The notes beneath the pieces are model-generated. The model had not been told where the DNA came from. It saw only the letters and a program-made list of their open reading frames with translations, and did no database searches. Shown piece after piece: positions 49,469-60,731 of a DNA stretch of 64,000 bases. The position numbers and the translations under genes are program-made. Source of the DNA: Rhodobacteraceae bacterium QY30 (GTDB lineage: Bacteria > Pseudomonadota > Alphaproteobacteria > Rhodobacterales > Rhodobacteraceae); assembly GCA_002356635.1 (NCBI GenBank), contig CP023454.1, positions 1,844,501 through 1,908,500 of the forward strand. The letters run 5' to 3'. Numbering within the stretch: the first letter of the stretch is position 1; the number at the start of each line of letters is the position of its first letter.

Positions 49469-49539
49469 GAGCTAGCCTCCCAAGATCCGCGCCTTGTTTT
49501 CGGGGCAGCCCCTCGTGGCGGCGGTATGTAAATGTTTGT

Positions 49540-49555
49540 TTGACCACGCGGTCAG
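49540..49555. promoter_or_regulatory. RutR-box-like palindrome, second site
   Basis: TTGACCA-CG-CGGTCAG fits the RutR consensus TTGACCA-N2-TGGTCAA at 12 of 14 defined positions. It lies between the aminotransferase start (49468) and the second RutR-like gene (49693), so both could be controlled from it. Confidence 0.65.
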
Positions 49556-49692
49556 GATGAGGCTAGCAGAGGGTTCAGGGAAGGAAAAGCACGGCCCGGA
49601 CAAAAACCGGTCGTTTCCGACATATTGCGCCGCAGGCGGATCGTCCATACGAGGACGGCCGGGTTGGCTCATGGCGGAATAGTGGAGGCAGG

Positions 49693-50337
49693 ATGGACCA
49701 GACGGGCGAGGAAGACGGGACCGGCGCGGGAAGCGCGCCCCGTCGGACGCGGATCCAGCAGAAGAACCGCGAGGCGATCCTGGAAGCCGCGCTGGAGGTC
49801 TTTTCGCAGCATGGGTTCCGCGGCGCCACGGTCGACCAGATCGCGCAGGCGGCGGGCCTGTCGAAGCCGAACCTGCTGTATTACTTTCCGTCGAAGGAAG
49901 CGATCCACATCGAACTTCTTTCGACCCTGCTGGACACTTGGCTGGCCCCGCTGCGTCGGCTGGACCCCGAGGGCGACCCGAAGGCCGAGATCCTGGCCTA
50001 CATGCACCGCAAGCTGGAGATGAGCCGGACCCTGCCGCGCGAAAGCCGCCTGTTTGCAAACGAGATGTTGCAGGGCGCACCTCGGATGAAGGACATGCTG
50101 GAGGGCGACCTGAAGGCCCTGGCCCAGGACAAGGCCGCCGTCATCGCCCGCTGGTCGGACGAGGGCAAGATAGCGGCCGTAGATCCCTATCACCTGATCT
50201 TCGCGATCTGGGCGCTGACCCAGCACTATGCCGATTTCGAAGTCCAGGTCCGGGCCATCCTCGGCCCCGACCACGACCCCTTCTCCGAGGCCGACACCTT
50301 CCTGACGACACTGTTCAACCGGCTGCTGGCGCGGTAG
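49693..50337 (+). CDS. rutR: TetR family regulator, RutR-like (second copy)
   Basis: A 214-residue regulator closer to E. coli RutR than its neighbour at 46.5 kb. The HTH and following residues (FSQHGFRGATVDQIAQAAGLSKPNLLYYFPSKEAIH), LPRESRLFANEMLQGAPRM and LIFAIWALTQHYADFEVQV parallel the RutR uracil-binding domain. GGAGG precedes the ATG. Its last 23 bases overlap the convergent FAD monooxygenase gene. Confidence 0.88.
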   Translation: MDQTGEEDGTGAGSAPRRTRIQQKNREAILEAALEVFSQHGFRGATVDQIAQAAGLSKPNLLYYFPSKEAIHIELLSTLLDTWLAPLRRLDPEGDPKAEILAYMHRKLEMSRTLPRESRLFANEMLQGAPRMKDMLEGDLKALAQDKAAVIARWSDEGKIAAVDPYHLIFAIWALTQHYADFEVQVRAILGPDHDPFSEADTFLTTLFNRLLAR

Positions 50338-51505
50338 CCAGGGCCCGGGTCGCGGCCGTCACGTCATGGCCGTACAGCCAGTCGAAGCGGCGGAGCGGCG
50401 CGGTGGGCATCAGCGATCCGCCAAGACGCAGCGCGAGATGCGCCGCGCCGCGCGCCACGCCCTTCAGGTGGTAGTTGCGCGCATTGGTATTGGCGGCCTC
50501 GACGATGCGGCGGGCGCGGGTTTCGCGCAGCGACTGGTAGGCCGGCAGCGCCTCCTCGACCGGCAGCCGTCCCAGACAATCGGCCAGCACCCAGGCATCC
50601 TCCAGCGCCATGTTGGCGCCCTGGGCAAGGAACGGCAGCGTCGGATGGGCCGCATCACCCAGGATCGCCGCGCCCTGCCCCTGCCAGCGCCCGGCGACAG
50701 GATGGCGAAACAGGCCCCAGAGGTTCGGCGCCTCGACCCGATCCAGCCACCCGCGCACCTCGGGCACGAAATCCTCGAAAGCGATGCGCAAGGTGATCGG
50801 ATCATCGGTCAGCGACCAGCTTTCATCAGCCCAGATCCGGCGTTCCTCGACGGCGACGATGTTGCGCAGACGGCCCCCGCGCAGCGGATAGGTGACGATA
50901 TGCCGCCCCGCGCCCATCCAGATCTGCGCGATGGGCTCGATGGCGGCGGTTTCGGGCAAGGTGGCGCGCCAGGCGACCTGATGCGTGAAGAAGGGCGCCA
51001 CCGTCCCGTTCAGCGCGGCGCGGACTTTCGAATGCAGCCCGTCCGCACCGATCAGCACACCGGTCTCGAAGGTGTCGCCATCGGCCAGCGTCAGGCGCGG
51101 CGGATGATCGCCCAGCTTCACCTTCTCGACCTTGGCGTTGGTACGGATGGTCACGCCCGCCTGCGCCGCCCCCAGAAGCAGCATCTCGATCAGGTCGGCG
51201 CGATGGAAGAAGCGGAAGTCGCCAGCCCCGTCCAGCGCCATCCGCAGGACGCGCTGCCCGGTTTCGCCGTTGCGCAATTCGACCGCCTGCGAGGCATCGC
51301 CCATCTCGGCCGCCTGTTCGCCCAGCCCCAGGGCGGCAAGGACACGCGCACCGTTCGGGGTCAGTTGAAGACCTGCGCCAACCTCGGAAATCTCGGGGGC
51401 CTGTTCCAGCACCGTGACGTCGGCATCCAGATGCGCCAGCGCCCGCGCCAGGGCAAGGCCGGCGATCCCGGCCCCTACGATCGTCACCTTGCGGTGCTGC
51501 AACAT
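50315..51505 (-). CDS. FAD-dependent aromatic monooxygenase (salicylate hydroxylase-like)
   Basis: A 396-residue group A flavoprotein hydroxylase with the three family signatures: GxGxxG (IVGAGIAGLALARAL), the DG motif (VLIGADGLHSKVRAAL) and the GD motif (ILGDAAHPTLPFLAQGANMALEDA). Such enzymes hydroxylate aromatic or N-heterocyclic compounds with NAD(P)H. The position beside the pyrimidine region may mean a heterocycle substrate, but that is speculation. Confidence 0.88.
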   Translation of the reverse strand: MLQHRKVTIVGAGIAGLALARALAHLDADVTVLEQAPEISEVGAGLQLTPNGARVLAALGLGEQAAEMGDASQAVELRNGETGQRVLRMALDGAGDFRFFHRADLIEMLLLGAAQAGVTIRTNAKVEKVKLGDHPPRLTLADGDTFETGVLIGADGLHSKVRAALNGTVAPFFTHQVAWRATLPETAAIEPIAQIWMGAGRHIVTYPLRGGRLRNIVAVEERRIWADESWSLTDDPITLRIAFEDFVPEVRGWLDRVEAPNLWGLFRHPVAGRWQGQGAAILGDAAHPTLPFLAQGANMALEDAWVLADCLGRLPVEEALPAYQSLRETRARRIVEAANTNARNYHLKGVARGAAHLALRLGGSLMPTAPLRRFDWLYGHDVTAATRALATAPAAG

Positions 51506-51537
51506 CTGCTAACCCGTCAGAATCGGCATTGGCCCAG

Positions 51538-51570
51538 AAAAAGGGCACCGGAACAATGGCTCCGATGCCC
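51538..51570 (-). terminator. rho-independent terminator after dksA
   Basis: In the minus-strand RNA GGGCAUCGGA and UCCGGUGCCC pair (one G-U) around an eight-base loop, followed at once by a UUUUU run. Confidence 0.85.
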
Positions 51571-51605
51571 AAGCTTTGCCAAGCCCTGCCCGTGGGGCAA
51601 GAGGC

Positions 51606-52028
51606 TCAATCGTCGCGGTGGACGCGTTCGCGGCGTTCGTGGCGTTCCTGCGCTTCAAGCGTCATGGTCGCGATCGGCCGCGCATCCAGGCGCTTCAGGC
51701 TGATGGGTTCGCCGGTCATTTCGCAATAGCCGTATTCGCCATTCTCGATCCGGCGCAGGGCCGCGTCGATCTTGCTGACCAGCTTGCGCTGACGGTCCCG
51801 CGTGCGCAGTTCCAGCGCACGGTCGGTTTCTTCCGAGGCGCGGTCGGCGATATCGGGAACATTGCGGCCCGAATCCTGAAGACCTTCCAGGGTCTCGGCG
51901 GATTGTTCCTGAAGTTCTGCCTTCCATGCCAAGAGCTTGCGGCGGAAATATTCCAGCTGCCGTTCATTCATGAACGGTTCGCTTTCGGCCGGCCGGTAAT
52001 CATCCGGAAGAAAGCTTTCGGGCTTCAT
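51606..52028 (-). CDS. dksA: RNA polymerase-binding transcription factor DksA
   Basis: A 140-residue DksA with the coiled coil (MNERQLEYFRRKLLAWKAELQEQ), the acidic-tip region (NVPDIADRASEETDRALELRTRDRQRKL) and the terminal globular part. It acts with ppGpp in stringent control. Only one of the four zinc-ligand cysteines remains (GYCEMTGEPISLKRL then ARPIATMTLEAQERHE), as in the cysteine-poor DksA of other Rhodobacterales. ATG 52028 is preceded by GGAGG. It is followed by a clear terminator. Confidence 0.93.
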   Translation of the reverse strand: MKPESFLPDDYRPAESEPFMNERQLEYFRRKLLAWKAELQEQSAETLEGLQDSGRNVPDIADRASEETDRALELRTRDRQRKLVSKIDAALRRIENGEYGYCEMTGEPISLKRLDARPIATMTLEAQERHERRERVHRDD

Positions 52029-52259
52029 CACTGCGACCTCCTGCAGTCCGGACGTCCGACTGGTCAATTACACGCATCCGGCACTTCTTGGGCGCGGTCA
52101 TTATCCGAAGCCGGAAGGGATGTCCACACGCCCAATACCTTGATGCAGTTTCCAACCCCCGGTAAGACATCCCGGTTCCCCGGCGGTCCCGCCGGACCCG
52201 AGAAATTTCCCCGGATTCCCCGCCCCGCGGCGCCGATCCGGGACAGGCGGAGAGACGAC

Positions 52260-53099
52260 ATGAAATTCACCGGAACCGACGCCTACATCGCCACCGATGA
52301 CCTGACGGTCGCCGTCAACGCCGCCGTGGCGCTGGAACGCCCGCTGCTGGTGAAGGGCGAGCCGGGCACCGGCAAGACCGAACTTGCCCGTCAGGTGGCC
52401 AGCGCGCTGGGCCTGCCCATGATCGAATGGAACATCAAGTCCACGACGAAGGCGCAGCAGGGCCTTTACGAATACGATGCCGTCAGCCGCCTGCGCGACA
52501 GCCAGCTGGGCGACGAACGCGTTCATGACGTGAAGAACTACATCCGCAAGGGCAAGCTTTGGCAGGCGTTCGAGGCCGAGGGAAAGGTTGTCCTGCTGAT
52601 CGACGAGATCGACAAGGCCGACATCGAATTTCCGAACGACCTTCTGCAAGAACTCGACCGGATGGAATTCCACGTCTACGAGACCGGCGAGACGATCCGC
52701 GCGAAACACCGCCCCGTGGTCATCATCACCTCGAACAACGAAAAGGAATTGCCCGACGCCTTCCTGCGCCGCTGCTTCTTCCACTACATCCGCTTCCCGG
52801 ACGAAGCGACGATGCGCCGGATCGTCGAGGTGCATTTCCCCAACGTGAAGGAAAGCCTGCTGACCACGGCGCTCACGCAATTCTATGAACTGCGCGAAAC
52901 ACCGGGGCTGAAGAAGAAACCTTCGACGTCGGAAGTGCTCGATTGGCTGAAGCTGCTTCTTGCCGAGGATCTGGGCCACGAAGACCTGAAGCGCGACGCC
53001 CGCACGATGCTGCCGAAGCTGCACGGGGCGCTTTTGAAGAACGAACAGGACGTGGCGCTGTTCGAACGGCTGGCCTTCATGGATCGCGCCCGGCGCTGA
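52260..53099 (+). CDS. MoxR family AAA+ ATPase
   Basis: A 279-residue AAA+ ATPase of the MoxR type: Walker A GEPGTGKTELARQVA, a MoxR insert (STTKAQQGLYEYDAVSRLRD) and Walker B VVLLIDEIDKAD, then sensor-1 ITSNNEKELPDAFLRRC. MoxR proteins are chaperone-like and work with VWA-domain partners; the likely partner is encoded at 55197. ATG 52260 follows GGAGA. A GNAT, a DUF2927 lipoprotein and a small membrane protein gene sit between the two. The upstream gap (52029-52259) is the divergent promoter region with dksA. Confidence 0.93.
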   Translation: MKFTGTDAYIATDDLTVAVNAAVALERPLLVKGEPGTGKTELARQVASALGLPMIEWNIKSTTKAQQGLYEYDAVSRLRDSQLGDERVHDVKNYIRKGKLWQAFEAEGKVVLLIDEIDKADIEFPNDLLQELDRMEFHVYETGETIRAKHRPVVIITSNNEKELPDAFLRRCFFHYIRFPDEATMRRIVEVHFPNVKESLLTTALTQFYELRETPGLKKKPSTSEVLDWLKLLLAEDLGHEDLKRDARTMLPKLHGALLKNEQDVALFERLAFMDRARR

Positions 53100-53188
53100 T
53101 CGCAATTCAGGCGAAAAATTGACTGGCAAATCTGGTCCGATCCGCCAAGTCTGGTTGCCGAGCAGGTCAACGACAAGAAGGGCCAGAC

Positions 53189-53641
53189 ATGCCTGATGCG
53201 ATCATCCGCCCGATCCGGGCCGAGGACGAAGCCGACTGGCGCCGGCTTTGGACAGGATATCTGGACTATTACGAAACCAGACTGCCCGAGGCGGTCTATC
53301 AATCGACCTTCGCGCGGCTGCTTGGCGGGGATGACCACGACTTCCACGGGCTGATCGCCGAGGCAGATGGCACACCTGTCGGCCTTGTGCATTACCTGTT
53401 TCACCGGACCTGCTGGAAGGTCGAAAACGTCTGCTACCTGCAGGACCTGTACACCGACCCCGCCTGTCGCGGACGTGGCATCGCCCGGGCGTTGATCGAA
53501 GCGGTCTACCGCGCCGCCGATGCGGCGGGCGCGCCGCAGGTCTGGTGGCTGACACAGGAATTCAACTACCGGGGCCGGATGCTGTACGACAAGATCGGGG
53601 TGAAGACGCCCTTCATCCGCTACAACCGCGTGTTGTCCTGA
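53189..53641 (+). CDS. GNAT family N-acetyltransferase
   Basis: A 150-residue GNAT acyltransferase. The acetyl-CoA-binding motif A is DLYTDPACRGRGIARALIEAVY; the fold starts with an IRPIRAEDEADWRRLW motif. It acetylates an amine substrate that cannot be told from sequence. It overlaps the start of the DUF2927 gene in TGATG. It sits in the MoxR-VWA cluster, about 90 bases after the ATPase gene. Confidence 0.9.
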   Translation: MPDAIIRPIRAEDEADWRRLWTGYLDYYETRLPEAVYQSTFARLLGGDDHDFHGLIAEADGTPVGLVHYLFHRTCWKVENVCYLQDLYTDPACRGRGIARALIEAVYRAADAAGAPQVWWLTQEFNYRGRMLYDKIGVKTPFIRYNRVLS

Positions 53642-55005
53642 TGGGCTTGCGTGGAGTGATCGCGGCGGCGCTGGTCGCGGCGCTGGCGTCTTGCGGTGCG
53701 CCCGGCCCTGCCCCCCGCGCCGGCAACACCGCCGCGATGCCTGATGTGGCGATGCGCCTTCCCACCAGCGTGCCGACCCCGCCGCGTCGGTCTAACGCGG
53801 AAATGGGGCGGGACTACCTCGATCTGGTCTTCATGCTGGAAAGCGGGCGCGAAGTGCCGGTCCTGACCCGCTACGAAGGCCGCGTGACGGTCAGCCTTGA
53901 AGGGACGGTCCCGCAGACCACCCGCCGCGACCTTGCCGATCTTCTGGCGCGGCTCCGGTCCGAGGCCGGCATCGATATCCGCGAGGTGCCCGAAGCCGGC
54001 ACGATCCGCGTGATCTCCCTTCCCCGGAAGACCATGCAGAATTATGTGCCCACCGCGGCCTGCTTCGTCGCCCCGAACGTCAGCGGCTGGCGCGATTACC
54101 TTTCGGCCCGCCGTTCTGAACGGGTCGATTGGGCGAGCCTCCGCGCCCGCGGTCCGGCGGCGATCTTCATCCCTTCGGACACCGCACCGCAAGAGGTCCG
54201 CGACTGCCTGCACGAAGAACTGGCCCAGGCGCTCGGGCCGCTGAATGACCTTTATCGGCTGTCGGACACGATCTTCAACGACGACAATTTCCACGGCACG
54301 CTCACGGGCTTCGACATGCTGATGCTGCGGCTTCACTATGCGCCGGAACTTCGGAACGGCATGACCCGCCCCGAAGCCGCATTGTCCGTGCCGCGCGCGA
54401 TCCAGAGGCTCAATCCCCGTGGCGGACCGGCGGGCGCGCTGCCGATGCAATACAGCGACACCACCCCCCGGCGTTTTACCGACGACATCGTGGCGGCGCT
54501 TGGCGGACGGCGCGATACGGGCCGACGCTCGGCGGCAGCGGATGCGACCGGGCTGGCCGTGGCGATGGGCTGGCAGGACAACCGCACCGCCTTCGCACTT
54601 TATTCTCTGGGGCGTCTCAGCCTGTCCGACAACCCGCCCGAGGCGGTCGGCGCGCTGGCCGAGGCGGCGGGCATCTGGGATTCGCTTGGCGCGCGGATCC
54701 AGGTTGCGCATGTGGACCTTTATATCGCGGGCCTCGCGCTTCAGACCGATGCGCTGGCCGAAGCGGTGGCGCTTGCAGATCGGTCGCTGCCGGTGGCGAA
54801 GGCCCATGGCAACGCGGCGCTCGTCTCCTCGCTTCTGGCGATGAAAGCGGCGGCGCTGGCGCGGATGGGCGATGCCGACGGCGCGGGGCGCCTGCGGCTC
54901 GACAGTGCCGGCTGGGCACGCTATGGCTTCGGATCGCAGGCGGCCCAGCGCATGGCCGATATCGCCGAGCTTCTGCCCGAGGCGACACCCCAAACGCGCC
55001 GCTGA
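53641..55005 (+). CDS. DUF2927 domain lipoprotein
   Basis: A 454-residue protein with a lipoprotein signal (ALVAALASCGAP, lipobox Cys at about 18), so probably anchored in the envelope. The DUF2927 region spans about 50-280. It contains HEELAQALG (His191-Glu192), which resembles a zinc-protease helix lacking the second His (Ala/Gln), then FNDDNFHGTLTGFDMLMLRL. The C-terminal half (about 300-440) reads as helical TPR-like repeats. Its role is unknown. It is translationally coupled to the GNAT gene. Confidence 0.78.
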   Translation: MGLRGVIAAALVAALASCGAPGPAPRAGNTAAMPDVAMRLPTSVPTPPRRSNAEMGRDYLDLVFMLESGREVPVLTRYEGRVTVSLEGTVPQTTRRDLADLLARLRSEAGIDIREVPEAGTIRVISLPRKTMQNYVPTAACFVAPNVSGWRDYLSARRSERVDWASLRARGPAAIFIPSDTAPQEVRDCLHEELAQALGPLNDLYRLSDTIFNDDNFHGTLTGFDMLMLRLHYAPELRNGMTRPEAALSVPRAIQRLNPRGGPAGALPMQYSDTTPRRFTDDIVAALGGRRDTGRRSAAADATGLAVAMGWQDNRTAFALYSLGRLSLSDNPPEAVGALAEAAGIWDSLGARIQVAHVDLYIAGLALQTDALAEAVALADRSLPVAKAHGNAALVSSLLAMKAAALARMGDADGAGRLRLDSAGWARYGFGSQAAQRMADIAELLPEATPQTRR

Positions 55006-55028
55006 CAGACCAAAGGAAGAAGACCTAG

Positions 55029-55193
55029 ATGATCGCGATTGCTGGCATGATCCTTGGCGCCCTGATCGGATGGGTGCGGGCCGCGCGGAAGGGCGGCACG
55101 ACGTTCGACAAGCTGCAATGGGCCGGTGCGCATCTGCTGATCGGCGCGATCCTCGGGCTGTTCGTGACGATCTTCGTAGAACGGATGCTCTAG
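55029..55193 (+). CDS. 54-residue small membrane protein
   Basis: An uninterrupted frame of 54 codons from ATG 55029 to TAG 55193. The translation (MIAIAGMILGALIGWVRAAR, then GGTTFDKLQWAG, then HLLIGAILGLFVTIFVERML) gives two hydrophobic segments joined by a short polar turn. GGAAGA lies upstream. It sits 23 bases after the DUF2927 gene and three bases before the VWA gene, which supports real coding. The function is unknown; it may anchor the MoxR-VWA machinery. Confidence 0.75.
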   Translation: MIAIAGMILGALIGWVRAARKGGTTFDKLQWAGAHLLIGAILGLFVTIFVERML

Positions 55194-55196
55194 CCG

Positions 55197-56378
55197 ATGT
55201 TCCTTGGCTTCTTTTCCACCCTTCGCAAGGCGGGCATCCCGGTCTCGCTGCGGGAATACCTGGCCTTCCTGGAAGGGCTGGCGGCGGGCCTTGTGACCTA
55301 TGACATCGACGGGTTCTACTACCTCGCCCGCGTGGCGATGGTGAAGGACGAACGCCACCTTGACCGCTTCGACCGCGCCTTCGCCGAAAGCTTCAAGGGG
55401 CTTGAGACGATCAGCCTGGACCAGGTGCTGGAAGCGGTGGACTTGCCGCGCGAATGGCTGGAAAAGCTGGCCGAACGCGTGCTGACGCCTGGAGAAATGG
55501 CCGAAATCCAAAGCCTTGGCGGCTTCGACAAGCTGATGGAGACGCTGAAGAAGCGGCTTGAGGAACAGAAGGGCCGCCATCAGGGCGGCAACAAATGGGT
55601 GGGAACGGCCGGCACCTCGCCCTTTGGGGCCTATGGCTACAACCCGGAAGGCGTCCGCATCGGCCAGGACAAAAGCCGCCACCAGCGCGCCGTCAAGGTC
55701 TGGGACAAACGCGAATTCCGCAACCTGGATGACACCGTCGAACTGGGCACCCGCAACATCAAGGTGGCGCTGAAACGCCTGCGCCGCTGGGCGCGCACCG
55801 GCGCTGCCGAAGAACTGGACCTGCAAGGCACGATCCGCGCCACCGCCGAACACGGCTACCTGGACGTGCAGACCCGCCCCGAACGGCACAATGCGGTGAA
55901 TGTCCTGTTGTTTCTGGACATCGGCGGCAGCATGGACGGCCACATTCGGCTGGTCGAAGAGCTTTTTTCGGCGGCGCGGTCCGAATTCAAGCACCTCGAA
56001 CATTACTACTTCCACAACTGCCTGTATGAAGGCGTCTGGCGCGACAACGCCCGCCGCTGGGACCGCCAGATCCCCACGGCCGAGGTGCTGCGCACCTATG
56101 GGTCCGACTACAAATGCCTGTTTGTGGGTGATGCCAGCATGTCGCCCTATGAAATCCTGTCGCCCGGTGGCGCCAACGAACACTGGAACCCCGAAGCGGG
56201 CCAGGTCTGGCTGGACCGCGCCCGCGCGCAGTGGCCGTCCCATGTCTGGCTGAACCCGACGCCCGAACGGAACTGGGGCTATACACAGTCCATCGGCATC
56301 ATCCGCGAGATCTTCGAGAACCGGATGTTCCCGCTGACGCTGGACGGGATCGGCCGCGCGATCAAGGCGCTGGGCTGA
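55197..56378 (+). CDS. VWA domain protein, CoxE-like partner of MoxR
   Basis: A 393-residue protein with a helical N-terminal part (FFSTLRKAGIPVSLREYLAFLEGL) and a VWA domain at about 230-390. The MIDAS metal motif is LFLDIGGSMDGH, where the first Ser of DxSxS is Gly, as is usual in CoxE-like members. The middle has GTSPFGAYGYNPEGVRIGQ. Such proteins act with MoxR ATPases to insert metals or remodel partners. It is encoded three bases after the small membrane protein gene, in the MoxR cluster. Confidence 0.9.
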   Translation: MFLGFFSTLRKAGIPVSLREYLAFLEGLAAGLVTYDIDGFYYLARVAMVKDERHLDRFDRAFAESFKGLETISLDQVLEAVDLPREWLEKLAERVLTPGEMAEIQSLGGFDKLMETLKKRLEEQKGRHQGGNKWVGTAGTSPFGAYGYNPEGVRIGQDKSRHQRAVKVWDKREFRNLDDTVELGTRNIKVALKRLRRWARTGAAEELDLQGTIRATAEHGYLDVQTRPERHNAVNVLLFLDIGGSMDGHIRLVEELFSAARSEFKHLEHYYFHNCLYEGVWRDNARRWDRQIPTAEVLRTYGSDYKCLFVGDASMSPYEILSPGGANEHWNPEAGQVWLDRARAQWPSHVWLNPTPERNWGYTQSIGIIREIFENRMFPLTLDGIGRAIKALG

Positions 56379-56425
56379 CGCGCGCGGGCATTGCGCGCGC
56401 GGGTCCGCTGCCCCATATCCGGGCC

Positions 56426-57118
56426 ATGCTGAAGCTGCTTCCTCTGATCCTGTTCCTGGCCTACGGGCTGGCGCTGTGGCATTTCTCGGCCTGGCGGACG
56501 CGGCGGATGCTGGACGGCGCCTCGTTTCCCCTGCGTGAACCGGCGCTTGTCGCCATGGCCGAACGCCTGGCCCGCGCGCTCGAGGTGCCGAAGGTTCCGG
56601 TCCATGTCTTCGACGTGCCGGGCGTGAACGGCCTCGCTGCTCCGGACGGGCGCATCTTCCTGACACGCGGCTTTGTCGACCGCTTCCGCGCCGGCGATGT
56701 CAGCGCTGAGGAGATGGCGAGCGTCATCGCGCATGAGATGGGCCATGTGGCCCTGGGGCATGGCAAGCGGCGCATGATCGACTTTACCGGCCGGAACGCC
56801 ATGCAGATGCTGCTCGCCACGCTGCTGGGGCGATTTGTCCCGGTCGTGGGCGTCTGGCTGGCTTCCGTCCTGACGACGGCCCTGGCCGCGGGTCTCAGCC
56901 GCCGCGACGAGTTCGAGGCCGACCGCTGGGCCTCGGCCCTGCTGATCCGCGCGGGCATTGGCTGCGGGCCGCAGAAATCGCTGTTCCTGAAGCTCGACCG
57001 ATTGACCGGGATGCAGGGCGGCGGGGCACCGGACTGGCTGCGGAGCCACCCCAAGGCCGCGGAGCGCATCGCCGCGATCGAGGCCAACGAGCGCAAGTGG
57101 CAGGATCACCGCGCCTGA
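56426..57118 (+). CDS. M48 family metallopeptidase
   Basis: A 230-residue membrane-anchored peptidase. An N-terminal hydrophobic segment (LLPLILFLAYGLALWHF) precedes the M48 domain. The zinc motif is VIAHEMGHVALGH and the third ligand region is RRDEFEADRWASALL. It is smaller than HtpX (one anchor plus one weak hydrophobic region). ATG 56426 is used. It follows the VWA gene by 48 bases and may be part of the same transcription unit, suggesting envelope quality control. Confidence 0.87.
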   Translation: MLKLLPLILFLAYGLALWHFSAWRTRRMLDGASFPLREPALVAMAERLARALEVPKVPVHVFDVPGVNGLAAPDGRIFLTRGFVDRFRAGDVSAEEMASVIAHEMGHVALGHGKRRMIDFTGRNAMQMLLATLLGRFVPVVGVWLASVLTTALAAGLSRRDEFEADRWASALLIRAGIGCGPQKSLFLKLDRLTGMQGGGAPDWLRSHPKAAERIAAIEANERKWQDHRA

Positions 57119-57185
57119 CCCGCGCCGGCCGCCTTTTTCGTGCGGGATTTGAGACCTGCCCGTCCTTCTTCGTTCAAAACCCCGT

Positions 57186-58313
57186 TCACCCGTGCCGCAA
57201 GGACAAGGCCTCGGTCAGAAGCGCCTTGACCAGATCTGGCGGAACGTCGTCGGTGACGAAGGCCTCGCCGATGTCTCGGGCCAGGATGAAGCGCAGGCGG
57301 CCGTCCTGGACCTTCTTGTCCTGGGCCATCAGCGACATCAGCGCGTCGGCATCGGGCAGATCGCCCGGAATGTCGGACAGGTCGGTCTTCATGCCCATCG
57401 CCCGCAGATGCGCCCGCACCCGGCCGGGAGTTTCCTGCGACAGAAGGCCAAGGCGGGCCGAAAGTTCGAAGGCCAGCGCGCAGCCGATGGCGACTCCTTC
57501 CCCATGCAGAAGCCGGTCGGAATAACCTGTGGCGGATTCAAGGGCGTGGCAGAAGGTGTGACCCAGGTTCAGAAGCGCGCGGTCGCCTTCCTCGGTTTCG
57601 TCGCGTTCGACGATGCGGGCCTTCATGCTGACGGAATGGCTGACCGCCTGCTGGCGCAGCGCCTTGTCGCCGCGGGCCAGCGTGGGTCCGTTCACCTCAA
57701 GCCAGTCGAAGAAGGTGGCATCGCCCAGAAGGCCGTATTTCACCACCTCGCCATAGCCCGCCAGAAAGTCGCGCGCCGGAAGGGTGTCCATCACGTCGAT
57801 GTCGGCCAGCACCAGCGAAGGCTGGTGAAAGGCGCCGATCAGGTTCTTGCCGTGGGTCGAATTGATGCCGGTCTTGCCACCGACGGAACTGTCGACCTGC
57901 GCCAGAAGCGTCGTCGGGATCTGCACGAAGCGCACGCCGCGGCGCAGGACGGCCGCGGCAAAGCCCACCAGATCGCCGATCACGCCGCCGCCGAAGGCAA
58001 TGACGATGTCCTTGCGTTCGACCTTTTCGGCCAGCAGCCATTCGACGGTGCGGGTGAATTCGGGCCAGCCCTTCGTCGCCTCGCCGGCCGGAAGGGTCAG
58101 CGCCGTCATCTCGATGCCGCCAAGGCCCTGCCGCAACGCGTCAAGGTGAAGCGGGCCCACCGTCGCATCCGTCACGACGGTGACACGCCGGCGGCGCAGG
58201 AGGGGCGCGATCTTGTCACCCGCGCGGGCGATCAGGCCGCGGCCGATCCGCACGTCATAGGCGCGGGATCCCAGGTCGACATGGACCGTATCAACTGCTG
58301 CCGTTCCGGTCAT
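57186..58313 (-). CDS. aroB: 3-dehydroquinate synthase
   Basis: The 375-residue enzyme converts DAHP to 3-dehydroquinate in the shikimate pathway, using NAD and a divalent metal. The signature GGGVIGDLVGFAAAVLRRGVRFVQIPTTLLAQVDSSVGGKTGIN region and the HG-containing LHGEGVAIG motif are present. It overlaps the upstream aroK stop by four bases (ATGA). The order aroK-aroB is common in alphaproteobacteria. Confidence 0.96.
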   Translation of the reverse strand: MTGTAAVDTVHVDLGSRAYDVRIGRGLIARAGDKIAPLLRRRRVTVVTDATVGPLHLDALRQGLGGIEMTALTLPAGEATKGWPEFTRTVEWLLAEKVERKDIVIAFGGGVIGDLVGFAAAVLRRGVRFVQIPTTLLAQVDSSVGGKTGINSTHGKNLIGAFHQPSLVLADIDVMDTLPARDFLAGYGEVVKYGLLGDATFFDWLEVNGPTLARGDKALRQQAVSHSVSMKARIVERDETEEGDRALLNLGHTFCHALESATGYSDRLLHGEGVAIGCALAFELSARLGLLSQETPGRVRAHLRAMGMKTDLSDIPGDLPDADALMSLMAQDKKVQDGRLRFILARDIGEAFVTDDVPPDLVKALLTEALSLRHG

Positions 58314-58846
58314 TCCTGAAGCACTCCGCCATGTTCCGACAGCGCCGTCATAACCCGGCGCGCCATGTCGTCGATGGAATAGTCCGGGCGGGACTGAACC
58401 TCAATATCGGCCAGCGCGTAGGTCGGCGCGCGGGCCGCCAGCAGGTCCTTCAGCGTTTCGCGCGGGTTCGGGGTGCGCAGAAGCGGCCGCGTGGTCTTGT
58501 GGCGCACCCGCTGCCACAACAGGTCAAGGTCCGCCTTCAGCCAGACCGAAACGCCGTGGCGGGCGATCTCGTCCCGGTTCTGCGGCGACAGGAAAGCGCC
58601 GCCCCCGGTCGACAGGACGCAAGGCGGCCCGGCCAGAAGCCGCGACAGGACCTGGGTTTCCTTGGCGCGAAAGAACGCCTCGCCGTCGCGGGCGAAGATT
58701 TCGGCGATGGAGCGGTTGGCAGCGGCCTCGATCGCGTCGTCGCAGTCAACGAAGGGCACGGCCAGCAGGCGGGCCAGATGGGTGCCGACCGCGGTCTTGC
58801 CCGCGCCCATCATGCCCACCAGAACCACCGTCTTCGAAAGCCGCAT
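58310..58846 (-). CDS. aroK: shikimate kinase
   Basis: A 178-residue kinase that phosphorylates shikimate. The P-loop is VGMMGAGKTAVGTHLA, the shikimate-binding DCD is in FVDCDDAIE, and the conserved glycine segment is LSTGGGAF. I use the ATG at 58846, where AGGAG lies about ten bases upstream; the longer frame upstream is not credible. It is the first gene of the aroK-aroB pair and is divergent from the 45-residue membrane protein gene. Confidence 0.95.
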   Translation of the reverse strand: MRLSKTVVLVGMMGAGKTAVGTHLARLLAVPFVDCDDAIEAAANRSIAEIFARDGEAFFRAKETQVLSRLLAGPPCVLSTGGGAFLSPQNRDEIARHGVSVWLKADLDLLWQRVRHKTTRPLLRTPNPRETLKDLLAARAPTYALADIEVQSRPDYSIDDMARRVMTALSEHGGVLQE

Positions 58847-59047
58847 CACCCAAATCTCCTGGCCGCCCGGGGGTGTCGTCGCGCAATCTTGCGGCGATCT
58901 CCCGCCAAGGCGGAAACTTTTCCTTCTCAATGGCGTGAACTTGCCGGGAAAGCCAGTTATATTCGGCGCGCACCCGCCCGTGGAAGGCTCTTCCGGCCCC
59001 CGCGGAGAAGAGGTGAGGAAAAATGAGATCGAGGACTGGCAGGACCG

Positions 59048-59185
59048 ATGGCACGTCTTTTCAAGACACTTCTGTTTGTGATGTTCGTCGGATTTCTGGG
59101 GCTTGTCGGCTATGCCTATCTGGGTGATCTTGCACCCGAACCAGCCGAAGTGCGCCAGCCGGTCGAATTGAATGCGGGCAACTAG
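59048..59185 (+). CDS. 45-residue single-pass membrane protein
   Basis: The frame runs from ATG 59048 to TAG 59185. It encodes a basic start (MARLFK), one membrane segment (TLLFVMFVGFLGLVGYAYL) and a short acidic/proline tail (GDLAPEPAEV). AGGA precedes the ATG. It overlaps the next gene by 14 bases, a coupling that argues for real translation. The function is unknown; it may be a partner of the exported protein encoded next. Confidence 0.7.
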   Translation: MARLFKTLLFVMFVGFLGLVGYAYLGDLAPEPAEVRQPVELNAGN

Positions 59186-60731
59186 CCGCCAACTGAGTGT
59201 CGTCGCCTGTCTTTTCCTGTCCGGCACCGCCGCGGCGGAAGAGCCGATGTCGGCCATCGACTGGCTGTCGAAATCGGTCACCACGCCGTCGGCCCTGCCG
59301 CGCGGGTCGGCGGCGGTCGGCCGTCCGGCCCCAAACGAGCCGCCGGTGACGAAGGGCGCCGCCGCCCGGCCGATCACCACGACGACGCTGGACCGGATCA
59401 ATTTGGACGGGCTGGGCCTGGTCCCGGCCGGAAAGTCGGGTCTGCCTTCGGACCTTTGGGGGCCTGCGCCGCCGGCCGAGATCGTCACAGCCATCCGCGG
59501 CGCGGCGACCGATACCGTCCCGGCGATCCAGGCCCTGCTGACCACGCTGATGATGACCGAAGCCGATCCGCCCCAGGGGCCCGATGCGCAAGGCACGGTT
59601 TTCCTGGCACGCGTCGACAAGCTTCTGGACATGGGCGCGCTGGATCCCGCGCTTGAGATGCTGAGCCTGCCCGCCACGCCGCAGCCCGAGGTGTTCCGCC
59701 GCTGGTTCGACGTGGCGCTGCTTCTGGGCGAGGAGGATCATGCCTGCGCGCAGATGCGCAAGACCCCGCAGATCGCGCCCACCTTTCCCGCCCGCATCTT
59801 CTGCGTGGCGCGTGGCGGCGACTGGAACGCGGCGGCCCTGTCGCTGCGCACGGGCGAGGCGCTGGGTCAGATCGATCCGGAGATGGCGGCGCTGCTGTCG
59901 CGCTTCCTCGACCCGGACCTTTACGAGGACGAGCCGCCCCTGCCCCCGCCTGCCCGCATGTCGCCGCTGATCCTGCGGCTGCTGGAAGCGATCGGAGAGC
60001 CGCAGCCGACCGTGACGCTGCCGGTGGCCTTTGCCAATGCGGACCTGCGCCCCAGCACCGGCTGGAAATCCCGGATCGAGGCGGCCGAACGGCTGGCGCG
60101 GACCGGCGCTCTGGATCCGAACGCGCTTCTGGGGCTTTACACCGAACAGGAGCCAGCCGCCTCGGGCGGGGTCTGGGACCGGGTGCGCGCCTGGCAGGAA
60201 TTCGACACCGCGCTGAACGGCGGCCATGTGAACGAGGTGGCATTGGCGCTGCCGCTGGTCTGGGATCAGCTGGCGGGCGTGGAACTGGAAGTGCCCTTCG
60301 CAACGCTTTACGGAGAACGGCTGGCGGCGCTGGACCTGTCGGGCGATGCGGGCGAGATCGCGTTCCGCGTGGGGCTTCTGTCCCCGGCCTATGAGGCGAT
60401 CGCGAAGGCCCGCACGCAGGCCGGGCCGGAGGAAGCCTTCCTGGCCGGACTGGCCCAGGGCCGGCCCGTCCCGCCCGCGCCCGGGCAGTTGGGCACCGCC
60501 ATCGTGCAGGGATTCGCGCCCAATCCTGAGATGCCCGAAGACCTGTTGCGGTTGTTGCAGGACAAGCGGACCGGCGAGGCCATCCTGCGCGCTGCGGACG
60601 ACGTGACGAACGGGGCGCGCGGCGATCTGCGCGCCGTCACCTCGGGGCTGGCGCTGTTGCGCAAGGTCGGGCTGGAAGCGACGGCGCGGCGCGCGGCGCT
60701 GGAACTGATGCTGCTGGAACGGCGCGGTTGA
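59172..60731 (+). CDS. exported protein of unknown function
   Basis: A 519-residue protein with a signal peptide (QLSVVACLFLSGTAAA), a Pro/Thr-rich linker (about 35-95) and a long helical-repeat body (about 100-519) with no motif that I recognise. Three cysteines in the body (CAQM, FCVA) could form a disulfide. The gene overlaps the small membrane protein gene upstream and shares TGATG with xerD. It is thus in a fixed small-membrane, exported protein, xerD order that may be shared across Rhodobacteraceae. Confidence 0.6.
   Translation: MRATSRQLSVVACLFLSGTAAAEEPMSAIDWLSKSVTTPSALPRGSAAVGRPAPNEPPVTKGAAARPITTTTLDRINLDGLGLVPAGKSGLPSDLWGPAPPAEIVTAIRGAATDTVPAIQALLTTLMMTEADPPQGPDAQGTVFLARVDKLLDMGALDPALEMLSLPATPQPEVFRRWFDVALLLGEEDHACAQMRKTPQIAPTFPARIFCVARGGDWNAAALSLRTGEALGQIDPEMAALLSRFLDPDLYEDEPPLPPPARMSPLILRLLEAIGEPQPTVTLPVAFANADLRPSTGWKSRIEAAERLARTGALDPNALLGLYTEQEPAASGGVWDRVRAWQEFDTALNGGHVNEVALALPLVWDQLAGVELEVPFATLYGERLAALDLSGDAGEIAFRVGLLSPAYEAIAKARTQAGPEEAFLAGLAQGRPVPPAPGQLGTAIVQGFAPNPEMPEDLLRLLQDKRTGEAILRAADDVTNGARGDLRAVTSGLALLRKVGLEATARRAALELMLLERRG

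Follow-up and report, generated by a model that had tools for sequence, protein, structure and literature searches.

What holds six genes together on one strand of a Rhodobacteraceae contig, and do their products form a single machine? The genes encode a MoxR-type AAA+ ATPase, a GNAT acetyltransferase, a DUF2927 lipoprotein, a 54-amino-acid (54-aa) membrane protein, a CoxE-like VWA protein and an M48 membrane peptidase. They occupy positions 52260-57118 of the window, the 64,000-nucleotide stretch of Rhodobacteraceae bacterium QY30 analysed here (contig CP023454.1, positions 1,844,501 to 1,908,500). All six lie on the plus strand in the order given, separated by 89, -1 (a 1-nt TGA/ATG overlap), 23, 3 and 47 nucleotides (nt), and this tight layout is as reported in a preliminary description of the window, which took the cluster for one inner-membrane/periplasm maturation or quality-control assembly. 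We propose, with roughly even confidence, that the cluster instead combines two functional modules at one locus: a MoxR/VWA remodeller (module A, MoxR and CoxE) and a membrane quality-control unit (module B, the M48 peptidase, the 54-aa protein and DUF2927). We group the genes in this way because loss patterns separate MoxR and CoxE from DUF2927, the 54-aa gene and M48.

CoxE is found by whole-genome search in 274 of 296 genomes of its own family, the Rhodobacteraceae, that are at least 95% complete, in 45 of 61 relatives and in 104 of 299 sampled Pseudomonadota genomes (the window's own genome is included in each count). Twenty of the 22 own-family genomes without CoxE were tested against 20 CoxE-positive controls, the other two being dropped, with ortholog thresholds of E < 1e-140 for MoxR (next matches 1e-38 or worse), E < 1e-130 for the TPR form of DUF2927 and E < 1e-60 for M48. 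Four of the 20 CoxE-lacking genomes have the MoxR ortholog, versus all 20 controls (Fisher P 1.5e-7), while DUF2927 is retained in 12 of 20 (one copy cut by a contig edge) versus 18 of 20 controls (Fisher P 0.065) and M48 in 15 of 20 versus 20 of 20 (Fisher P 0.047). These counts bear out the MoxR/VWA pairing of the preliminary description and speak against its single assembly.

We read 18 CoxE-lacking regions, picked for the presence of a module gene (none came from G576 or G758). In two MoxR-positive genomes, G683 and G695, the contig breaks off within DUF2927 or directly behind the 54-aa gene, and CoxE may be missing from the assembly for that reason. Fourteen regions lack both MoxR and CoxE; 13 of them carry the 54-aa gene, 10 DUF2927 and 5 GNAT. 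M48 lies downstream of the 54-aa gene in 11 of the 14, at distances of 37, 42, 47, 69, 82, 121, 144, 169, 361, 420 and 1110 nt (37-169 nt in eight), and the 54-aa gene and M48 are retained without DUF2927 in G622, G714, G681 and G721. MoxR and CoxE are thus mostly lost together, and the remaining cluster closes up around the gap. A tree of M48 sequences (56 rows from own-family regions, every second named locus and 11 CoxE-lacking regions) puts the 11 CoxE-lacking rows in scattered positions (11 changes), with few branches supported.

Where CoxE is present, the layout recurs. Gene order was read in 165 regions, 45 at first and then 120 more: 80 named loci selected among 593 candidates, 20 of 44 matches outside the Alphaproteobacteria and 20 of 46 from other alphaproteobacterial families. 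The loci in these last two groups were hand-picked for spread over families, and counts of neighbouring genes by hidden Markov model (HMM) include fragments. The own-family set comprises 36 CoxE-bearing regions from 37 genomes. DUF2927 lies near coxE in 30 of these (five without, one at a contig edge), and the 54-aa gene is found by HMM in 31, at most 25 nt from coxE in 25. MoxR is within 5.5 kb of coxE in 24 (eight without, four at an edge), M48 within 4.5 kb downstream in 25 (ten without, one at an edge), and GNAT is nearby in 19. This recurrence of the six genes in most own-family regions is far beyond chance, and gene order, which the preliminary description listed among its checks, is conserved across the Rhodobacteraceae. 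Sorted by record title, the named loci fall into 72 outside Rhizobiales and 8 within (L090 repeats L058). The 72 carry the 54-aa gene in 67 cases, DUF2927 in 63, MoxR in 57, M48 in 48 and GNAT in 25. Across all regions, the gap from DUF2927 to the 54-aa gene is below 60 nt in 89 of 91, and that from the 54-aa gene to coxE in 84 of 98 (one region is counted twice).

Beyond these groups, module A is found by itself. The eight Rhizobiales loci have MoxR in six and GNAT in five and a module B gene in none, with one to three stretches too short to tell. MoxR precedes coxE by 3 to 1177 nt in all 20 non-alphaproteobacterial loci read, and no GNAT, DUF2927, 54-aa gene or M48 was seen beside coxE there, some stretches having ended early. 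In other alphaproteobacterial families MoxR accompanies coxE in 8 of 9 and 13 of 20 loci, with one more on the opposite strand; no module B gene stands beside coxE in these 29 loci, of which some ended early and 20 reached 5 kb. Two uncultured alphaproteobacterial loci whose family is not stated (L162 and L166) have M48 directly after coxE.

The 54-aa gene (55029-55193) helps to define module B. It has no Pfam match above cut-off; it lies 3 nt before the VWA gene, as first described, and in its product a basic R-x-x-(R/K)-x-G loop joins two hydrophobic stretches, which suggests a membrane hairpin. The open reading frame is a real gene. It is carried by 98 of the 165 regions, and G14, A18, G23 and D27 are invariant in 70 full-length copies. 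Compared with the nearest relative, L031, the ratio of nonsynonymous to synonymous differences (pN/pS) is 0.32; random pairs give 0.64 in frame versus 1.05 and 1.27 in the two shifted frames, with sites near saturation in the distant ones. A class-wide search of 230 genomes found good matches confined to three genomes of the own family; two partial matches (E ~5e-4) we take as chance. The 3-nt spacing had made the protein a candidate partner of the VWA protein, but the gene persists beside M48 where CoxE is lost, and we therefore regard M48 as its likelier partner.

Several observations weigh against a clean division. In most family members the genes of the two modules alternate along the locus: coxE usually separates the 54-aa gene from M48, an order that hints at shared function or regulation, and a joint role of both modules is compatible with our data. 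M48 lies at most 350 nt from coxE in just 6 of the 36 own-family regions and is absent within 4.5 kb in 10. DUF2927 is absent from 8 of the 20 CoxE-lacking genomes and from 2 of the 20 controls. G800 and G572 have MoxR without coxE within about 5 kb and without a contig edge, and their stretches hold MoxR without other cluster genes, save a dksA-like gene in G800. The M48 tree is also compatible with all CoxE-lacking rows sharing one origin.

A single trans-envelope machine, in which cytosolic MoxR and CoxE act through the 54-aa hairpin to feed M48 and DUF2927 and CoxE-lacking genomes use a simplified form, would draw on the interleaved order held in most of the family, on the tight DUF2927/54-aa/coxE gaps and on the position of the 54-aa gene directly before coxE even where DUF2927 is missing (e.g. 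L142, L150, L152 and L161). We consider it unlikely, given that module B often survives without MoxR and CoxE and that module A is widespread without module B.

Our assignment of MoxR and CoxE to a common remodeller draws on sequence, fold and co-occurrence. MoxR (52260-53099, 279 aa; Pfam AAA_5/AAA, 54 bits for AAA_5) is an AAA+ protein with a Walker A motif GEPGTGKT and a Walker B motif LLIDEIDKAD, a VWA-fold partner is encoded alongside, and the two genes co-occur. CoxE (55197-56378, 393 aa) matches PF05762 (VWA_CoxE) at 30.6 bits over a cut-off of 26.4, a match limited to residues 188-274. The gene is single-copy in the window's genome, where the Pfam family adds one match below cut-off; in L040 (G010) coxE appears as two overlapping frames, owing either to a frameshift or to faulty assembly. 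The structural model is of moderate quality (predicted local distance difference test (pLDDT) 66.9, predicted template modelling score (pTM) 0.50). Its residues 184-393 resemble VWA domains (ANTXR2, Z 9.3), including five NorD VWA entries (Z 7.6-8.4 over 163-177 residues). Unrelated small GTPases appear in the same fold list up to Z 7.9, near NorD; therefore the rank of NorD alone proves little. A sequence search found no solved CoxE relative. Instead of the canonical DxSxS of a metal ion-dependent adhesion site (MIDAS), CoxE has D241-x-G243-G244-S245, invariant in 21 rows, with Gly for the first Ser. Conservation is among the highest, and model confidence the lowest, in residues 127-170 (GTxGTSPFGxxGYNPEGVRIG), as might suit a segment that orders on partner binding.

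The closest precedent is NorQ/NorD, a MoxR AAA+ protein with a VWA partner that serves nitric oxide reductase; there the AAA+ ring is plugged by the VWA domain, whose MIDAS touches the client (PMC9976466). The system studied here likewise encodes a MoxR ATPase and a VWA protein together, and the CoxE model aligns to the NorD VWA domain; it differs in that no nor genes were recognised nearby by eye and in the Gly at the first MIDAS Ser. By analogy, we propose that in module A a MoxR hexamer ring and its CoxE-like VWA adaptor would remodel a folded client with ATP, the CoxE VWA domain plugging the ring and presenting its MIDAS to the client as in NorQ/NorD. CoxD/CoxE, which matures CO dehydrogenase, is a second relative: an AAA+ partner is shared and VWA_CoxE scores above cut-off here, whereas the Pfam match spans only residues 188-274 and CO dehydrogenase genes were not recognised by eye among the neighbours.

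Since CoxD/CoxE (PMC4240915) and NorQ/NorD (PMC9976466) both act in metal-site maturation, MoxR and CoxE could be a cofactor-insertion chaperone for a metalloenzyme, with the other genes mere neighbours. That precedent and the match of the CoxE VWA domain to NorD favour the idea, which we nevertheless find doubtful. Among the recurring neighbour clusters (those in at least 8 of the 165 regions, identified by eye), we recognised no nitric oxide reductase or CO dehydrogenase genes, and the sole likely metalloenzyme besides M48 is a cytochrome-P450-like gene in 14 regions. It lies downstream of coxE (cluster 31; e.g. L122:9958-11103), and its product is a conceivable, unproven client of MoxR/CoxE. 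The literature searched names no client for this MoxR/CoxE pair.

Least probable of all is that the genes form a stress regulon block, co-located for shared expression with no physical partnership beyond MoxR-CoxE, a view that fits the absence of GNAT, DUF2927 or M48 from some loci that retain the others and conflicts with the 54-aa gene and M48 staying together despite the loss of DUF2927, MoxR and coxE in G622, G714, G681 and G721.

Returning to the two-module reading, the lipoprotein of module B is encoded at 53641-55005 (454 aa; DUF2927, PF11150, 152 bits). Its lipobox Cys18 is invariant in 51 rows, as are C141 and C189, between which a disulphide is possible. An AlphaFold2 model built from 51 sequences is of high quality (mean pLDDT 90.4, pTM 0.87). 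The C-terminal half is a TPR domain by sequence match, structure comparison (Z 14-18) and Foldseek. The N-terminal domain is modelled with strands at residues 82-87, 122-127, 142-145 and 173-178 and a helix at 93-109; a further helix, 183-198, bears the family motif. This motif, C189-x-x-E192-E193-x-x-Q196-x-x-G199-x-x-N202-D203 (54205-54249), is strongly conserved: C189, E192, E193, Q196, G199, D203 and D225 are invariant and N202 nearly so in 26 aligned DUF2927 members, and the strict pattern EExxQxxGxxND fits 31 of 32 members, L149 having Ser for Asn. The C..EE..Q..G...D signature is shared by the 26 aligned members of PF11150; the cox-linked form differs by its added TPR domain.

The metzincin zinc motif is HExxHxxGxxH. 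DUF2927 has EExxQxxGxx(N/S)D in its place, with Glu, Gln and Asn replacing the three zinc histidines and the catalytic Glu and the Gly retained. The preliminary description had read HEELAQ (residues 191-196) as a degenerate zincin motif. The metzincin-like motif without zinc ligands stands; HEELAQ itself is one residue out of register and we reject it as the zinc motif, His191 being variable. Most Rhodobacteraceae copies and some paralogues have His at position 191, and several members have Val, Leu, Ile, Tyr or Asn instead. In a Foldseek comparison with viral models (BFVD), seven metalloproteases, several of them M10/matrix metalloproteases, are among the 50 rows listed (E 0.012-0.21); the best superposition, A0A6J5P205, has probability 1.00, a target template modelling score of 0.55 and a root-mean-square deviation (rmsd) of 4.6. 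A later LT..D...L..LY segment resembles matrixin C-termini.

On the other side, all metzincin matches are weak, with E > 0.001 throughout and rmsd of 10-27 for all but A0A6J5P205, and TPR and glycosyltransferase entries are interspersed. No metzincin occurs among the PDB fold matches listed, which are filled by the TPR half, and a PDB sequence search with the N-terminal domain matched designed proteins for the most part (best E 1.6e-4) and did not bring up a protease. Active-site helix register and spacing are shared with M10-type metzincins, and the absence of all three zinc histidines sets DUF2927 apart from them. The weak fold match and the direct motif register together suggest that the N-terminal domain may be an inactivated metzincin. 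In the literature searched, no paper names DUF2927.

DUF2927 also occurs outside the cluster. A second gene of the same genome, at G000:C1:1551550-1552206 (L075, L088), carries the same motif CLHEEIAQGLGLPND. G196 contig C1:46652-66787 has seven DUF2927 matches in about 20 kb, an unusual expansion in one genome of the class.

The assignments of an acetyltransferase and an M48 peptidase hold on profile matches (Acetyltransf_1, 59 bits; PF01435 Peptidase_M48, 87 bits). The peptidase (56426-57118, 230 aa) has HEMGH and a third Glu ligand in EFEAD. Hydropathy predicts two hydrophobic segments, the second between HEMGH and EFEAD; HtpX has a hydrophobic stretch placed in the same way. LoiP is the best NCBIfam match, and the protein scores below the equivalog cut-offs for LoiP (60 against 365 bits), BepA (33 against 570) and HtpX (26 against 245 or 341). 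It shares the Peptidase_M48 domain, HEMGH and EFEAD with these proteins and differs in its 230-aa length, in the 54-aa gene upstream and in missing the curated cut-offs.

For module B, we envisage that the 54-aa hairpin would sit in the inner membrane next to M48, as partner or regulator, and that DUF2927, a predicted periplasmic lipoprotein with a putatively inactive metzincin-like domain and a TPR domain, would act as a substrate or stress adaptor. Both modules would then serve membrane or envelope upkeep. A bolder version, which we put forward as a speculation with a small chance of being right, is a family-specific trans-envelope protease control, in which the inactivated metzincin-TPR lipoprotein would recognise damaged envelope proteins and license M48 through the 54-aa hairpin, coupled in most members to a MoxR/VWA motor that would unfold or extract the substrate. 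If this were true, DUF2927 would be an inactive-protease family unrecognised in its Pfam name.

Neither MoxR/VWA pairs nor M48 proteases are new as such. The interleaved layout, a 54-aa partner of M48 and an inactive-metzincin DUF2927 are absent from the literature listings searched, two of which covered 20 of 41 and 10 of 1,035 matches. Under the module split, CoxE would be expected to co-purify with MoxR, and M48 and DUF2927 with the 54-aa protein; a metzincin-like DUF2927 without zinc ligands is a testable idea for the whole family.

The GNAT acetyltransferase (53189-53641, 150 aa) is an optional passenger that accompanies either module and is often missing. It stands between MoxR and coxE in L154, L156, L164, L165, L167, L218 and L219, loci of Rhizobiales and other alphaproteobacteria in which module B was not seen, and its association with module A may be the older one.

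Other candidate identities for the cluster proteins were set aside. An anti-phage defence system is not supported, PADLOC giving weak AAA+ matches for MoxR (best 33 bits), one weak match for M48 and none for the other four. Among the NCBIfam matches listed (the best 25 for two proteins), none reaches cut-off for any of the six, and the MadB ATPase (NF047784) scores 129 bits against a curated cut-off of 475. PA2707 represents a MoxR subfamily (PMC3893208); a cysteine synthase motif, written as a regular expression meant to recognise the PA2707 locus, had no match in the 20 non-alphaproteobacterial loci. Two papers report that singlet oxygen induces RSP_1024, a MoxR of R. sphaeroides (PMC3688512), and that CenR binds it (PMC9275681). 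None of 237 loci carries the printed CenR site, and 19 of 394 family genomes do; of 10 CenR-site loci fetched, L239 has the site upstream of a MoxR 30% identical to ours, and the other nine have no match to cluster proteins. RSP_1024 is more likely a paralogue than an ortholog of this MoxR, and its data were not used.

The cluster is flanked on the left by a divergent dksA-like gene (51606-52067, minus) and on the right by a convergent aroB-like gene (57186-58313, minus), both named by eye from their translations. Consensus scans of 49500-60500, which by themselves do not establish function, found no sigma-70-like promoter, and the sole plus-strand terminator-like site (55192-55209) lies over the coxE start. 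A TTGTCAC box occurs upstream of MoxR in 39 Rhodobacteraceae regions versus 1.1 expected from single-base shuffles, in a subset of the 126 upstream stretches read. The window's 200 upstream bases (MoxR intergenic 52068-52259) hold no exact copy, and the box may belong to the divergent dksA-like gene.

Other neighbours, named by eye, recur around the cluster. A DedA-like membrane protein gene follows coxE, in many of the 26 cluster-20 regions before M48 (e.g. L131:9544-10143). A PIN-like protein gene (cluster 11) lies downstream of coxE in 49 regions, for example in L037, on the minus strand beyond M48. A FAD-monooxygenase-like gene, at 50315-51505 on the minus strand of the window and upstream of the dksA-like gene, is present in 65 regions (cluster 8).

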